From: Actinomycetota bacterium
GTDB lineage: Bacteria; Margulisbacteria; Marinamargulisbacteria; GCA-2716485
Assembly: GCA_002716485.1 (NCBI GenBank)
Contig: PBBE01000043.1
Location: 1 to 33,693, forward strand
Length of the DNA stretch: 33,693 nt
Direction of reading: 5' to 3'
Shown one piece after another: positions 2,150 through 28,859 of this stretch. The first letter of the stretch is position 1. Each line of letters begins with the position of its first letter. Both the position numbers and the translations under genes were made by a program. The notes below the pieces were generated by a model, which had not been told where the DNA came from, did not search any database, and saw only the letters and a program-made list of their open reading frames with translations.

Positions 2150-4495
2150 ATGAAAACAAGATATTTAATAGGACTATTGATAATGACGCTTCACCTTAAG
2201 GCCACATCAGTCACGGCCAATAGTCCGAGCATGTTAATCGAAAATGAGCTGCATTTTTCCAGTGGGGCCAAAATTGTAGATACCATCCCAGAAGGGATCC
2301 TGTTAGATCCTGATATGCCATGGACCGATTACTATAGCGAGCTACTCAAAAAGAATAAAACAGATCCAGGGACCATTAATATTACGGTGGGGGTTGGCGG
2401 GAGTTTTATTACAGGAAAGTTGACATTGGGAAGTACAGTTGCCAATGAACTCAGTACAGGTCGAGATAATTTTAATCTGGGTCTTAGGGATCTTAGTGCG
2501 GATGATGTTCGTGGGGGTTATTATAAGAGCGCTAGTTGGACCCATACTACAGATGATACTGGCAACGCAAATAATGCATGGGCCCAGGTCAGTATATTAG
2601 GAAATACGACTGCAGAGGTGCCTAGTCAGTATCAAACTCCTACCAGTGGCCAGCCCTATAACTCATTTGACGCGTTTTGTGATGATATTAGTAATATAAC
2701 AGCTGTAGATACTCTTGCTGAGCTTCCATCATCTCCTACCAAAGCAAACTGTTTAAAACCATCTGGTGCCGTGGGTTATGACGAAAGGTACTCCGACTTT
2801 TACAAAAAATATACCGTATATAATTGTAAAAATGTCGGTGGGACCTATGAAGCAAGTAATCCCTTGAATTGGGATAAGTGTTACGTTAATTCGCCCTTAT
2901 TTGATTTACGAAAGCCAATTATGGTCTTACAGGGTAAAAATAGTTATTCAGTAATTAATGCCACTGATGGCTTTAATGCCCTGCCTAGTGACCCAGCCAT
3001 ATTGGGGATCCAATACGAATATGGTGTCACCAAAATAGGCAATGGAACGAATAGCGAGGGTGCCCCGGTAGCAAAGTTAACGGTAGGTAAGCCGATTAAT
3101 TCTACTAATACCAATTTCGTCGGTATTTATGAAGAGGACCCAGACTCGGCCTTACATATATCCAATACCAACCTGACCTTTAACGAGCTATACGGCCAAT
3201 TGGGGCTATCAGCGTCATTAGTTCAGATTGGTGGTTCTCGTGTCCAGACCATTACCAGCGATTATGCCGACACACAATTTACAAATAATACTAGTATTCT
3301 TGTAACATCTCACCCTAAACCAGGCGGCGGAGAGAAGGATCAAGCGGCCTCTTATAATACTGAGGATGCTAATATCACTATTGAACAGTCTAACTTAAAT
3401 GGAACCATGCTCTTTTTTGCCATGTCGACGGTTACTTATAAGCATGATCAAGGGGCTAATATGCCCCTCGCTATTCAAACGAGGATATGTCAAGGCAGTA
3501 CTTGTTCCAGCCCCAGCGCCTTTACATATGTCAAACAAACCGGCTATGACGAGTACCAACATACCAATGTCCTGGTCTTTAAAGCTAATCAGTTAAACTT
3601 ATCGCATAAAAGGAAATTGATTGATCCCTCACCAAGTACAAGCACCGGTAGTAGTGGGGGTATAGGCGTCATTATGGACCGTGTCAGAAATCATTTGTTT
3701 AGTATAGATGATCAAAAAAGACGAGAATTATTAAGAACAAATTTTGATAGTTTTTCTGGTAAATATATCCCTGATCCCACCGGGCTATCAGAAGGGTATT
3801 ACAATGACCCCTTTACATCGATTACCACAAAAGATGATAAAATTGATTCTATAGATGATATTTATACTAAAGTAACTGATACTGATGAAGAATCCCCTCT
3901 TTATAGTGAAAATTGCCCTAAGGTTGCTGATGACGATAATGGCATTACAAAGTGTTTTCCTAGAGAGCCAAATGCCTTTGAAACAACCAATATAGATAGT
4001 GCATGGAGCCAAAAAAAGAACGCCAAAAGATTGTATGATTATTATGGAGATCCTTGGTCTACTTTTCATAATAATAACGAAAACCACCCAAACAATTATC
4101 TTGGCTTTGGGGTGACAAAAGCAGAGTGTTTATATCATCGTCTGTTTGGTGATAGTGATTTATGGATTCGTCATCATGCCAACGCCAATCTAGATGATCA
4201 TAAAGGTGATATTCAATGGAATAAATATGGGTCTGAAATAGGGGAATATGCAATACAAAGGAGTGACGGTTCTTTTATTCCCTATGGAGGGGGAAGCGTC
4301 CAACCAAGCAAGGGCGGCTATGACCATAATTTCTACGAGAAAGATTTGAAATATTACTTTTTAAAAAGTTTGGAGGACGCAATACTCTACATAAATGAGG
4401 AAAGACTATATAGTCCTATTAGTCCAGTAGCAGACTCATTACCTATCACCCAAACCGCATTCAACATGGTCGTCTACGGCTTTCCTACGAAATAA
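2150..4495 (+). CDS. Large secreted/envelope protein of unknown family with N-terminal Sec-type signal peptide
   Basis: MKTRYLIGLLIMTLHLKATSVTA-N has basic n-region, hydrophobic core and an A-x-A-like end. SD 'aggag' just upstream. Begins 12 nt after the preceding gene. Confidence 0.8.
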   Translation: MKTRYLIGLLIMTLHLKATSVTANSPSMLIENELHFSSGAKIVDTIPEGILLDPDMPWTDYYSELLKKNKTDPGTINITVGVGGSFITGKLTLGSTVANELSTGRDNFNLGLRDLSADDVRGGYYKSASWTHTTDDTGNANNAWAQVSILGNTTAEVPSQYQTPTSGQPYNSFDAFCDDISNITAVDTLAELPSSPTKANCLKPSGAVGYDERYSDFYKKYTVYNCKNVGGTYEASNPLNWDKCYVNSPLFDLRKPIMVLQGKNSYSVINATDGFNALPSDPAILGIQYEYGVTKIGNGTNSEGAPVAKLTVGKPINSTNTNFVGIYEEDPDSALHISNTNLTFNELYGQLGLSASLVQIGGSRVQTITSDYADTQFTNNTSILVTSHPKPGGGEKDQAASYNTEDANITIEQSNLNGTMLFFAMSTVTYKHDQGANMPLAIQTRICQGSTCSSPSAFTYVKQTGYDEYQHTNVLVFKANQLNLSHKRKLIDPSPSTSTGSSGGIGVIMDRVRNHLFSIDDQKRRELLRTNFDSFSGKYIPDPTGLSEGYYNDPFTSITTKDDKIDSIDDIYTKVTDTDEESPLYSENCPKVADDDNGITKCFPREPNAFETTNIDSAWSQKKNAKRLYDYYGDPWSTFHNNNENHPNNYLGFGVTKAECLYHRLFGDSDLWIRHHANANLDDHKGDIQWNKYGSEIGEYAIQRSDGSFIPYGGGSVQPSKGGYDHNFYEKDLKYYFLKSLEDAILYINEERLYSPISPVADSLPITQTAFNMVVYGFPTK

Positions 4496-8316: not shown

Positions 8317-9336
8317 ATGAGCGCCATTAAGGCAGCCGTGGTGGGGGCCACTGGGTACTCTGGCATTGAGCTACTTCGTTTATTAAATCAGCACCCCAAT
8401 ATAGAGGTGACGGCGTGTTATAGCAAGCGATTTAATGGTCAGAGCATAGATAAGCAATATGATCACTTTATTGGTCAAGAGGCCATTGTTTTAGAAGAGT
8501 TTATCCCCAGCCAAGTCCCTGACGAGATTGAGGTCTTGTTTTTGGCGGTACCCCATGCCCAAAGTCATACCTATATGGATCAGATTCGAGACGATTTGAT
8601 GGTCATAGATTTGTCGGCAGATTTTCGATTAAATGAGGCCAAGACCTTTGAACAGGTCTATCAGAGCCCTCATCAGTCTGCATCGCTTTTATCGAGCGTA
8701 CCTTATGGCTTGCCCGAGTGTCATCGTGACGCCATTAAAGCGGCCACTAAGGTGGCCAATCCTGGCTGTTATGCCACTAGTATTATCTTAGGGGCCTATC
8801 CCTTGGCCCAAGCAGGGCACTTGAGCTCGCCTTTTGTCGTCAACGCCCAATCAGGAATCAGTGGGGCAGGGCGATCTGAAAAGACCTTTTCGTTATTTTG
8901 TGAGCGACATGATCGCGTGACGGCCTATCAGATGGGTCAGCACCGTCATCAAGCAGAAATTGATCAGGAGTTAGGCGGTCACTGTTTGTTAGTGCCTCAT
9001 GTGGTCCCGATGTCTCGTGGGATTTTGGCCCAAATACCGGTCCCGTTAACCCAGACATTGAGCATGGCGGTCTTGGTCGAGTTATATCATAGTCAGTATG
9101 ATCAGGAGCCTTTTGTTCATGTTAAAGAGAACTGGAAAACACCGAGTACATCGGCAGTGACAGGGTCTAATATGTGTATGATTGGGATTAATCAGGTCTC
9201 GGATGGCATGGCCTTGATTTCAGTGGCCATTGATAATTTGTTGAAAGGGGCGGCCGGTCAAGCAGTTCAGAACATGAATCTTATGATGGGTTGGGATGAG
9301 ACCCTGGGGTTACCAACGCAAGGACGATACCTATGA
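8317..9336 (+). CDS. argC: N-acetyl-gamma-glutamyl-phosphate reductase
   Basis: VVGATGYSGIELLRLLNQHP, NPGCYATSIILGAYPL, SGISGAGRS; ATG abuts the rplS stop. Confidence 0.95.
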   Translation: MSAIKAAVVGATGYSGIELLRLLNQHPNIEVTACYSKRFNGQSIDKQYDHFIGQEAIVLEEFIPSQVPDEIEVLFLAVPHAQSHTYMDQIRDDLMVIDLSADFRLNEAKTFEQVYQSPHQSASLLSSVPYGLPECHRDAIKAATKVANPGCYATSIILGAYPLAQAGHLSSPFVVNAQSGISGAGRSEKTFSLFCERHDRVTAYQMGQHRHQAEIDQELGGHCLLVPHVVPMSRGILAQIPVPLTQTLSMAVLVELYHSQYDQEPFVHVKENWKTPSTSAVTGSNMCMIGINQVSDGMALISVAIDNLLKGAAGQAVQNMNLMMGWDETLGLPTQGRYL

Positions 9337-10523
9337 GCTCGGGCCCTAGTATTAGTGACTTAGATGGGGTTTATGCCAACGCCATTCAGGCGGGTATTAA
9401 AGAAGGCGGTTACGACTTAAGTTATATTTATGTCCCAGATGCCTTGGCCAGTGCCGGGGTCTTTACCAAGAACCAATGCCCAGCCTCTTCCGTCATTCAT
9501 ACCCGAAAGGCCCTCAAGCGAGGTGTCTTTAAAGTCATTGTGGTTTCTTCTGGGAACGCCAATGCCGGGACCGGAGAAAAAGGGGCCAGTGATACTCAGC
9601 AAATCGTGAAGAGTGTGGCCAAGAAATTAGGCCTTAAGCAATCAGAAGTGGCAGTGGCGGCCACGGGTATTATTGGGAAGCGATTGCCCCTAGATAAAGT
9701 CCAGCTAGGCATTGAGGCCTTATTTAAGGATGCCTATCAAAAGCATGGGGAGCAGGTCGCTGAGGGAATTTTGACCACAGATACCTTTACAAAAACCGCC
9801 TATACAAGCCAAAAAGTCGGCAAAAAAACCGTGCAGGTGGCAGGGATTGCCAAGGGCTCTGGTATGATTGCGCCGAATATGGCCACTATGTTGGGGTTTT
9901 TGGTGACTGATGCCAAGGTCAGCTCGGCCTTTTTGCAACGTGCGTTAACCGAAGCGGTTGGCAAGACCTTTAACCGAATCTCAGTGGATACGGATACGTC
10001 TACCAGTGATATGGTCTTGGTTTTAAGTACAGGGAAAGTGGCCATTGCAGAAAATGACCCGGCTCAAGCTCAGGCTTTTAAATCCACATTAACCGAGGCG
10101 ACACATCAATTGGCCCAACAGATTATTCGGGACGGTGAGGGGGCCAAAACCGTAATTGAGGCGACCGTTAAAGGGGCCATTACCCATACCGGTGCCGAAG
10201 AGATTGCCCGGCATATTATTGATTCGCCCTTGGTCAAAACAGCGATTCATGGTCAAGATCCGAACTGGGGTCGGATATTAATGGCCATTGGGAAAAGTCA
10301 GGGGACCAAAATCAACCAGAAAAAATTAATGATTAATATCCAAAATAACCGGGTATATCAAGAGGGGGCCCCTACTGACTTTGATCTTGAGCAATTAAGA
10401 CAGAGCTTGGATACTGATACAGTCTCCATCGAGGTGGATTGTCAGTTAGGGACAGGCACTGCCACATGTTGGGGCTGTGAACTGACCAAAGGCTATATTG
10501 ATATTAATACCGCTTATAACTAA
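9333..10523 (+). CDS. argJ: Bifunctional glutamate N-acetyltransferase / ornithine acetyltransferase
   Basis: KGSGMIAPNMATMLGF self-cleavage region, SVDTDTSTSDMV, GQDPNWGRILMAIG; 4-nt overlap with argC. Confidence 0.95.
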   Translation: MSSGPSISDLDGVYANAIQAGIKEGGYDLSYIYVPDALASAGVFTKNQCPASSVIHTRKALKRGVFKVIVVSSGNANAGTGEKGASDTQQIVKSVAKKLGLKQSEVAVAATGIIGKRLPLDKVQLGIEALFKDAYQKHGEQVAEGILTTDTFTKTAYTSQKVGKKTVQVAGIAKGSGMIAPNMATMLGFLVTDAKVSSAFLQRALTEAVGKTFNRISVDTDTSTSDMVLVLSTGKVAIAENDPAQAQAFKSTLTEATHQLAQQIIRDGEGAKTVIEATVKGAITHTGAEEIARHIIDSPLVKTAIHGQDPNWGRILMAIGKSQGTKINQKKLMINIQNNRVYQEGAPTDFDLEQLRQSLDTDTVSIEVDCQLGTGTATCWGCELTKGYIDINTAYN

Positions 10524-14967: not shown

Positions 14968-15365
14968 TATTAATAAAACCTGACGGCGTCTCACGAGGCC
15001 TTGTGGGGGAAGTATTGGGCCGTTTTGAACAAAAAGGACTCAAGATTTCGGAACTTAAAATGATGCAAATGACCGATGAGTTATCGGATCGACATTATGC
15101 AGAGCATGTGGATAAACCTTTTTATCCGCGCCTTAAAGCCTTTATTTTGTCTGGGCCCATTGTGGCCATGGTCTTAGAAGGGGACCGAGCCATTGAAGTG
15201 GTACGACGTTTGGTGGGTGATACTGACTCTGCCGAGGCTGCACCGGGGACCATTCGGGGCGATTTGTCTTTATCAAAAGGCGAAAATATTATTCATGCCT
15301 CAGATAGTAGCGAGAGTGCCCAACGGGAACTCGCCCTCTTTTTTGGGACGAAAGTCGTCTCTTAA
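14952..15365 (+). CDS. ndk: Nucleoside-diphosphate kinase
   Basis: [39 protein letters not shown]..., NIIHASDS; overlaps the argH 3' end by 16 nt. Confidence 0.95.
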   Translation: MEKTLVLIKPDGVSRGLVGEVLGRFEQKGLKISELKMMQMTDELSDRHYAEHVDKPFYPRLKAFILSGPIVAMVLEGDRAIEVVRRLVGDTDSAEAAPGTIRGDLSLSKGENIIHASDSSESAQRELALFFGTKVVS

Positions 15366-16659: not shown

Positions 16660-17040
16660 TTAGACAAGAAAGCCAAAGTAAATTAAAACAAACCCCAGCA
16701 GCGTCATCAGCAGCCCTACTAAAGAGAGCGGAAGGACCTCTTTATTATTTCTGATTAACTTGACCCAGATATCAGGGAACATGATCCGGATAATCCCCGA
16801 AATCAAAAAGACGTATCCAATAATCGTGATGATCATTGGCAATCCTGACACCAATACATGATGGGTACTCACCAAAATACTTCCCAACAACAACGGAACA
16901 ATACCTGAGACCAATCCCAAGGCTTTAGACTTGGTAATTTCGTCTACGGCGCTGGTCAGATGTTGGTGGTTAAGAATGGTGCCTAGACCCAATACAGTTA
17001 GAAAAATTCCTAGGAATTTTGCCAATAGTATACTCGACAT
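16660..17040 (-). CDS. Small four-TM integral membrane protein of unknown function
   Basis: MSSILLAKFLGIFLTVLGLGTILNH...; ATG at 17040 preceded by strong SD AAGGAGGTG, so the longer ORF start at 17136 is unlikely. Confidence 0.85.
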   Translation of the reverse strand: MSSILLAKFLGIFLTVLGLGTILNHQHLTSAVDEITKSKALGLVSGIVPLLLGSILVSTHHVLVSGLPMIITIIGYVFLISGIIRIMFPDIWVKLIRNNKEVLPLSLVGLLMTLLGFVLIYFGFLV

Positions 17041-17073
17041 AATTTCACCTCCTTTTCGTTGAGTTAACAGCCT

Positions 17074-17099
17074 ATACCCACTTTTTGGCGATTTTAAAC
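17074..17099 (-). promoter_or_regulatory. Sigma-B-type promoter of the small membrane protein gene
   Basis: Minus strand: GTTTAA (17094-17099), 14 nt, GGGTAT (17074-17079); exact match to the B. subtilis SigB consensus as I recall it. Confidence 0.75.
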
Positions 17100-17170
17100 A
17101 TGTTTTTATATCGAAATTTGATGTTATATAGCTCAAATAAGGAAAATTAGGTACGAAATAGAAAAAAATA

Positions 17171-17208
17171 GACCCAAAAAAAGGCCTAAGTCGGCCTTTT
17201 AAAGGGTC
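17171..17208 (-). terminator. Rho-independent terminator of the 137-aa gene
   Basis: Minus-strand hairpin AAAAGGCC/GGCCTTTT followed by a T7 tract; outer GACCC/GGGTC pairing. Confidence 0.75.
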
Positions 17209-17227
17209 ACAAAATCACTTTTTTTTA

Positions 17228-17641
17228 CTAAGGGTCCGCCTCCAAAACTTGGGCATGCTCCATGGCCTCGGCCCATGAAGAGACCGTGGCTTTGACTAGG
17301 TTGAGAAGTTCCGGATCGATCTGATCAGACTGGGCACTATTCATCACTTCTAATAGGCTGGCCACACTGGCTTCAGATTTGGAAATAATGCCTTCAGAAG
17401 GGGCTTTGTTTTCATCCAATACATGTTGAAGGGTGGATACAATGGTCTCCACATGGGATAAGATCCGTTGGGTTTGTTCGATCTCTTTAGGATTAGATTG
17501 GGCTTGTAAAAGACCAGTGGTAGTCAGGTTTCGAAGGATTTGGTCCAATGTTTTGAGTTGGGATAAGATCCGGGTTGAAATGCCAGTGGCGTGTTGGGTT
17601 ATTTCTGAAATCTTGGTTTTAATATTATTAATGAGATTCAT
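17228..17641 (-). CDS. 137-aa, predominantly helical protein of unknown function
   Basis: MNLINNIKTKISEITQHATGISTRILSQLKTLDQIL...; ATG with SD AAGGAGGG, own promoter and terminator. Confidence 0.8.
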   Translation of the reverse strand: MNLINNIKTKISEITQHATGISTRILSQLKTLDQILRNLTTTGLLQAQSNPKEIEQTQRILSHVETIVSTLQHVLDENKAPSEGIISKSEASVASLLEVMNSAQSDQIDPELLNLVKATVSSWAEAMEHAQVLEADP

Positions 17642-17698
17642 ATGTGTCGGCCCTCCTTGGTCGATGTCCAGGGATATTAGATCCCTTATATCCTAGGG

Positions 17699-17724
17699 AT
17701 ACCCAGGAAAAAGGGATCTTAAAC
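17699..17724 (-). promoter_or_regulatory. Sigma-B-type promoter of the 137-aa gene
   Basis: Minus strand: GTTTAA (17719-17724), 14 nt, GGGTAT (17699-17704). Confidence 0.75.
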
Positions 17725-28308: not shown

Positions 28309-28334
28309 GTTTAAGATCCGCTAATATCGGGTAG
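28309..28334 (+). promoter_or_regulatory. Sigma-B-type promoter of the 156-aa gene
   Basis: GTTTAA (28309-28314), 14 nt, GGGTAG (28329-28334). Confidence 0.65.
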
Positions 28335-28388: not shown

Positions 28389-28859
28389 ATGAGTGATCAA
28401 CAAGAGGTGCAAGGCGTTCAGGAGATTAATGTCTCACAGTTACAACATCAAGTGGGTGGACAAGCCATGGCACCGGCTCAGCCTCAAGGAAAAAGTAGTG
28501 CAGAAAGTGCCGGTGCTAATGATACTGAAGGCGGTATTAATATGGACTCTGTCAAGCAGATCCAAAAGAGTATCGATTATATTTTAGGAAAGGCCTTTAA
28601 TTTTATGACTTTAAAAGCCAAGGATAAGCAGACCAATAAGACCGTCTCTGCACGCCTCAAGCGGGACCTTTGGCAGATTGTTGAACAAGGAAGTGCAGAT
28701 CGGACCAAGTGGACCTTTAATCCCCAGAACCGACAAATTACCAAAAACGACCAAATTGGTGAAACTGAAGACCTGCAAGATATGGGCAATTTTTTAGCCA
28801 ATTTATTTGATTTGGTAAGCCAAAAATCAAAAGAAGTTGAAATGGACTTCGGCCGGTAA
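28389..28859 (+). CDS. 156-aa protein of unknown function with Gln/Ala-rich N-terminus
   Basis: MSDQQEVQGVQEINVSQLQHQVGGQAMAPAQPQGK...; SD aaggggagg. Confidence 0.8.
   Translation: MSDQQEVQGVQEINVSQLQHQVGGQAMAPAQPQGKSSAESAGANDTEGGINMDSVKQIQKSIDYILGKAFNFMTLKAKDKQTNKTVSARLKRDLWQIVEQGSADRTKWTFNPQNRQITKNDQIGETEDLQDMGNFLANLFDLVSQKSKEVEMDFGR

Follow-up and report, generated by a model that had tools for sequence, protein, structure and literature searches.

The locus raises the question of how two adjacent uncharacterised genes on the minus strand of a Margulisbacteria-type contig are transcribed, and whether they belong to a larger regulon. The window analysed here is the whole stretch of DNA, 33,693 nucleotides long, and corresponds to contig 43 of a Marinamargulisbacteria-type genome (G000), the assembly of which amounts to 1.4 Mb and is 56% complete. 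The first-pass annotation assigned a perfect sigma-B-type promoter, followed by a well-formed Shine-Dalgarno sequence, to each of the two genes. The features of the region are as follows:

17719..17724, minus: -35 box GTTTAA of the 137-aa protein gene, an exact match, with CAT just 5' of it as part of a context shared with other sites
17699..17704, minus: -10 box GGGTAT of the 137-aa protein gene, an exact match (sequence model 32.8 bits, site in the training set)
17652..17658, minus: Shine-Dalgarno sequence AAGGAGG of the 137-aa protein gene, read from the sequence
17228..17641, minus: open reading frame of a 137-aa protein, predicted to be helical and soluble
17176..17200, minus: terminator-like hairpin AAAAGGCC-GACTTA-GGCCTTTTTTT after the 137-aa protein gene, read from the sequence and overlapped by a terminator-like site
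17094..17099, minus: -35 box GTTTAA of the membrane-protein gene, an exact match, with CAT just 5' of it as at other sites
17074..17079, minus: -10 box GGGTAT of the membrane-protein gene, an exact match (sequence model 32.9 bits, site in the training set)
17048..17054, minus: Shine-Dalgarno sequence AAGGAGG of the membrane-protein gene, read from the sequence
16660..17040, minus: open reading frame, from ATG, of a 126-aa membrane protein with four hydrophobic stretches

Both promoter assignments hold in every element. The site of the membrane-protein gene (17074-17099, minus) reads GTTTAA-AATCGCCAAAAAGT-GGGTAT and ends 33 nt before the ATG, and that of the 137-aa protein gene (17699-17724, minus) reads GTTTAA-GATCCCTTTTTCCT-GGGTAT and ends 57 nt before the ATG. 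The hexamers are exact, the spacers are both 14 nt long, and AAGGAGG precedes both start codons. The chance expectation for the motif in the window, with spacers of 12-15 nt allowed, is 0.02 on average, and none of 100 shuffled sequences contained two sites. The arrangement GTTTAA-N14-GGGTAT is exactly that of the Bacillus subtilis PrsbV promoter, and a spacer of 14 nt is reported to be apparently optimal (PMC9847131). An inverted repeat, GGGAT...ATCCC, lies in the leader of the 137-aa protein gene (17642-17698, minus), downstream of the -10 box and upstream of the Shine-Dalgarno sequence. The accompanying claim that housekeeping genes of the window use TTGACC/TATAAT elements instead was not upheld, as sigma-70-type matches between positions 15000 and 30000 are no commoner than in shuffled sequence (18 found, 24.2 expected).

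The hairpin lies between the 137-aa protein and membrane-protein genes, so that the two are probably transcribed separately. Judged by the codon usage of the window itself, the frame of the 137-aa protein is strongly coding (0.40 bits per codon, as for ndk), and that of the membrane protein is weakly coding (0.07 bits per codon), with all other frames negative. The membrane protein has a sub-threshold resemblance to DUF308 (Pfam E 0.0028, 18.3 bits against a cut-off of 25) and one distant homologue among the relatives, in G017, where the upstream region does not contain the motif. The single-sequence AlphaFold2 model of the 137-aa protein consists of five helices and is of low confidence (mean pLDDT 67), and a search of 35 relatives detected no homologue. 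The predicted membership in a SigB-type regulon is the sole handle on the roles of the two proteins.

A third, weaker site, which was overlooked in the first-pass annotation, is located on the other strand:

28309..28334, plus: GTTTAA-N14-GGGTAG with GAT just 5' of it, one mismatch, 54 nt before the open reading frame at 28389
28389..28859, plus: 156-aa protein without a Pfam match, coding score 0.40 bits per codon

The sequence model, from the training set of which this site was absent, gives it 18.4 bits (E 0.0026). Another one-mismatch match, at position 10331 on the plus strand, lies within an argJ-like coding gene (open reading frame 9333-10523) and was dismissed as chance.

The motif recurs throughout genome G000, with 26 exact GTTTAA-N14-GGGTAT sites, whereas the reversed pattern does not occur. 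Spacers of 12, 13, 14 and 15 nt yield 0, 1, 26 and 2 sites, respectively. At least 24 of the 26 exact sites stand directly 5' of an open reading frame, according to a simple placement with starts picked by simple rules; as a baseline, 5.3% of 26-mers drawn at random from the window are wholly intergenic. The clearest exception, on contig C48, is inside an open reading frame. The motif thus lies upstream of genes and not inside them, which was the enrichment that the first-pass annotation proposed to look for. Beyond the positions fixed by the search pattern, the 26 sites agree in further bases: an A-tract located 7-11 nt upstream, (C/A)AT 5' of GTTTAA (A at -2 in 26/26 sites and T at -1 in 24/26), AAA in the spacer, T before GGGTAT, and, downstream, CT at +3/+4. 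A sequence-only model trained on 25 sites found 16 further matches at E < 0.003, including the third site of the window; 15 of them precede an open reading frame and one is inside the argJ-like gene. Exact sites and model matches together amount to about 40 such promoters, and all site counts are minima because the genome is 56% complete. On contig C22 (L039:1087-1354), two tandem exact sites, 242 nt apart, precede one gene for a 1630-aa lipoprotein.

These sites have the GTTTAA box, the spacer of about 14 nt, the GGGTAT box and the position close before genes that characterise SigB-type promoters. A repeated sequence could also be a transcription-factor operator or arise by chance from base composition, and the weak conservation beyond the two hexamers would suit an operator or chance as well. 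Neither fits the count of 26 sites against 0 reversed ones, the spacer fixed at 14 nt, the set position and orientation before start codons, or the perfect agreement with a known sigma consensus in a genome that encodes the matching sigma factor. We consider an operator or a compositional artefact to be very improbable.

The genome encodes four sigma-70 proteins, of which two are RpoD-like, one is FliA-like and one is a 252-aa protein of the SigB/SigF/SigG type. The first-pass annotation anticipated a SigB/F-group sigma factor accompanied by RsbV/RsbW-like genes. Its idea came through both refuting tests that it named, since the motif is placed before genes and the genome contains such a sigma factor together with RsbV, RsbW and a PP2C phosphatase:

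G000:C30:3071-3823, minus: SigB/SigF-group sigma factor, 252 aa, best NCBIfam family SigB/SigF/SigG
G000:C47, L114:6650-7006: RsbV-type STAS protein, adjoining the RsbW-type kinase
G000:C47, L114:6993-7496: RsbW-type kinase, 124.4 bits, below the NCBIfam curated cut-off of 145
G000:C12:6962-7558: membrane PP2C (SpoIIE-type) phosphatase

The 252-aa sigma factor matches Pfam regions 2, 3 and 4, all above the cut-offs, and does not have the N-terminal region of the SigA type. The best of all families is TIGR02980, with 197.8 bits, which is under the curated cut-off of 234.35, and the score against the SigB equivalog TIGR02941 is 155.1 bits, under the cut-off of 315. Orthologues with E below 1e-45 are present in 25 of 35 relatives and are 60-62% identical within the order. 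The closest named relatives come from metagenome bins (59-62% identity), one of which is labelled Candidatus Marinamargulisbacteria; the labels Rickettsiales and Actinomycetota on some other bins with close relatives are taken to be mislabels. Upstream of the sigma gene (L038 ~3827-3900, G000:C30) there is a nine-codon open reading frame with a strong Shine-Dalgarno sequence, which ends with TAG four codons before, and in the same frame as, the GTG start of the sigma factor. This short frame could encode a leader peptide. The orthologues in relatives begin at the position of the GTG. In both G000 (L032, contig C30) and G008 (L118, contig C97), the neighbourhood of the sigma gene is conserved, with a MurE-like ligase gene in divergent orientation to it.

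The cryo-EM structure of Staphylococcus aureus sigma-B bound to promoter DNA identifies the residues that read the bases, and attributes the short spacer to regions 2 and 3 reading the -10 box together (PMC11156646). The residues that read the -35 box, R241, S235, M237 and Q236 in S. aureus numbering, are identical in the 252-aa sigma factor. R110 and R100, which read the first two bases of GGG, are also identical, and R97, which reads the third, is replaced by histidine. The matched -35 and GGG readers and the histidine at the R97 position are invariant in 16 Margulisbacteria-type sequences. One of the two residues of the -11A pocket is kept.

The FliA-type sigma factor, encoded at G000:C5:19010, is another possible reader, and the same contig carries one N13 site before a flagellar rod gene. 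The sites fit SigB-type boxes, not FliA-type boxes. Furthermore, region 4 of the FliA-type protein has SKSKVCR where the -35-reading SQM..R is expected, and nearly all targets are non-flagellar, which makes reading of the sites by FliA highly unlikely.

The evidence points instead to transcription of each of the two genes, singly, by RNA polymerase carrying the 252-aa SigB/SigF-group sigma factor, probably held by RsbW and released by RsbV, and we regard this mechanism as very probable. Region 4 of the sigma factor would read GTTTAA, and regions 2 and 3 would read GGGTAT as double-stranded DNA, which would explain the short 14-nt spacer. The RsbW-type anti-sigma factor would probably keep the sigma factor inactive until the PP2C phosphatase activated RsbV and the sigma factor was freed by partner switching. 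We infer that the 252-aa sigma factor reads these sites, that RsbW controls it, and that the trigger is a stress or lifestyle signal. The exact sites, the matching sigma factor, the inhibitor pair and the approximately 40 promoters argue for a real regulon of the SigB/F kind, the function of which is predicted from sequence. The regulon is apparently undescribed, and a search of the available literature found nothing on a SigB-type regulon in Margulisbacteria.

The best solved relative of the RsbW-type kinase is RsbW itself. The genes of the sigma factor (C30) and of RsbV and RsbW (C47) are on different contigs and are unlinked; in the relative G008, a PP2C gene is adjacent to the sigma gene and convergent with it. 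The sequence model found no SigB-type motif in the regions before the sigma gene and rsbV, and a sigma-A-like promoter, TTGATT-N17-TATACT, can be read 5' of rsbV. Bacillus SigB typically feeds back positively on itself, and with no motif before either gene such feedback was not found here. Several relatives encode single proteins of about 900-1070 aa in which a SpoIIE phosphatase domain is followed by an RsbW-type kinase domain (G003:C10, G004:C30, G008:C19 and G012:C217).

The approximately 38 predicted targets include a ferritin, a glutamate-cysteine ligase-family protein, DoxX, a thioesterase, a SulP transporter with STAS and cyclic-nucleotide domains, an adenylate/guanylate cyclase, an LRR lipoprotein, an outer-membrane efflux protein, pilin-like proteins and a flagellar rod protein. 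Most are lineage-specific or unannotated, and many do not belong to any family. The cyclase (L125:7202-9049) and the SulP transporter with the cyclic-nucleotide-binding domain (L041:4525-6717) are each located behind an exact site, and cyclic-nucleotide signalling might be linked to the regulon.

What the regulon is for is a separate matter, since the stress and lifestyle readings concern its purpose; they overlap with the promoter mechanism and are not alternatives to it. The first-pass annotation proposed a general-stress-like regulon, of which the regulon part stands and the stress part was not established; stress-type targets are mixed with many unannotated, surface and lineage-specific ones. 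A Bacillus-like general stress response, which is a narrower form of the same mechanism, is suggested by the ferritin, glutamate-cysteine ligase-family protein, DoxX, thioesterase and SulP transporter, by the PP2C-RsbV-RsbW set, and by hemerythrin-like proteins, named from their sequences, whose genes follow the motif in four relatives within the order. The mostly unannotated or lineage-specific character of the targets, with pilin-like, LRR, lipoprotein, outer-membrane and flagellar genes among them, and the lack of the motif upstream of the sigma gene and rsbV weigh against it, so that we hold a general stress response to be plausible at somewhat less than an even chance.

A lifestyle programme, rewired towards surface and lineage-specific proteins and away from stress protection, would account for the lipoproteins, pilin-like, LRR and outer-membrane efflux proteins and the many ORFans, and in relatives the motif repeatedly precedes members of several exported families. 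Exported and membrane proteins are nevertheless not enriched among the targets in a crude test (14/38 against 71/211 background genes, P = 0.71), and we propose such a programme only tentatively. A search for a second FlhA found only one per genome and hence no indication of a type III secretion system in its own right; the idea that effector-like targets leave the cell by this route was rejected on this ground. One form of the divergence from general stress that we put forward with reserve is that SigB-type partner switching in Margulisbacteria is unlinked, apparently not autoregulated, and directed to near-perfect extended promoters (A-tract and (C/A)AT-GTTTAA) by a sigma factor with an arginine-to-histidine change at the third G, and that its targets are mainly very small proteins, surface proteins and proteins specific to the lineage.

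The 36 genomes of the phylum contain 140 exact sites and 10 reversed ones, and AT stands directly 5' of GTTTAA in 56 of 110 examined sites of relatives. The presence of the sigma factor and the number of sites across the 36 genomes show a trend only (Mann-Whitney P = 0.068). Sites without a detected sigma factor occur in G003 and G014, the assemblies of which are 55% and 77% complete, and no sigma factor of any sort was recovered from the G014 assembly; six of the 36 genomes have the sigma factor and no exact site. The predicted targets overlap weakly with motif targets in relatives (5/38 against 8/211 background genes, P = 0.03). SigB has been reported to regulate different genes in different species, and the weak overlap accords with such species-specific gene sets (PMC9847131). 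In five genera, an exact site is followed by a solitary, very short gene (41-51 aa): L244 (G000:C9), L267 (G001:C166), L332 (G010:C61), L318 (G014:C23) and L338 (G031:C80). Their products have a loose common C-terminus in LN, LS or MN (for example YEFSLN, KFSFSLS and INYSLN) and possibly form one microprotein family.

The results provide a first regulon outline, from sequence alone, for an uncultured phylum close to Cyanobacteria, in which about 40 genes, many of unknown function, would be tied to one named candidate sigma factor. They suggest that SigB-type promoter reading is conserved well beyond Gram-positive bacteria. The system resembles the SigB regulon of B. subtilis in its promoter consensus and in the presence of the RsbV-RsbW-PP2C set. 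In B. subtilis, sigB and rsbVW form one operon with a SigB promoter, whereas here they are unlinked and neither is preceded by the motif. The targets also differ, and (C/A)AT extends the promoter before the -35 box here. Exact-consensus promoters number 26 in the 56%-complete genome, as compared to 6 of 255 predicted genes in B. subtilis. The closest solved relative of the 252-aa sigma factor is S. aureus sigma-B (PDB: 8x6g, E 2e-35), with which it shares all four -35 readers and two of the three G readers, whereas R97 is an invariant histidine here and the -11A pocket lacks F79. Among the genome contigs searched, outside Margulisbacteria-type genomes, the nearest named relatives are SigF/SigB-type sigma factors of Actinomycetota, with approximately 33-40% identity, and the Margulisbacteria-type sigma factors (38-62%) rank above every actinobacterial one.
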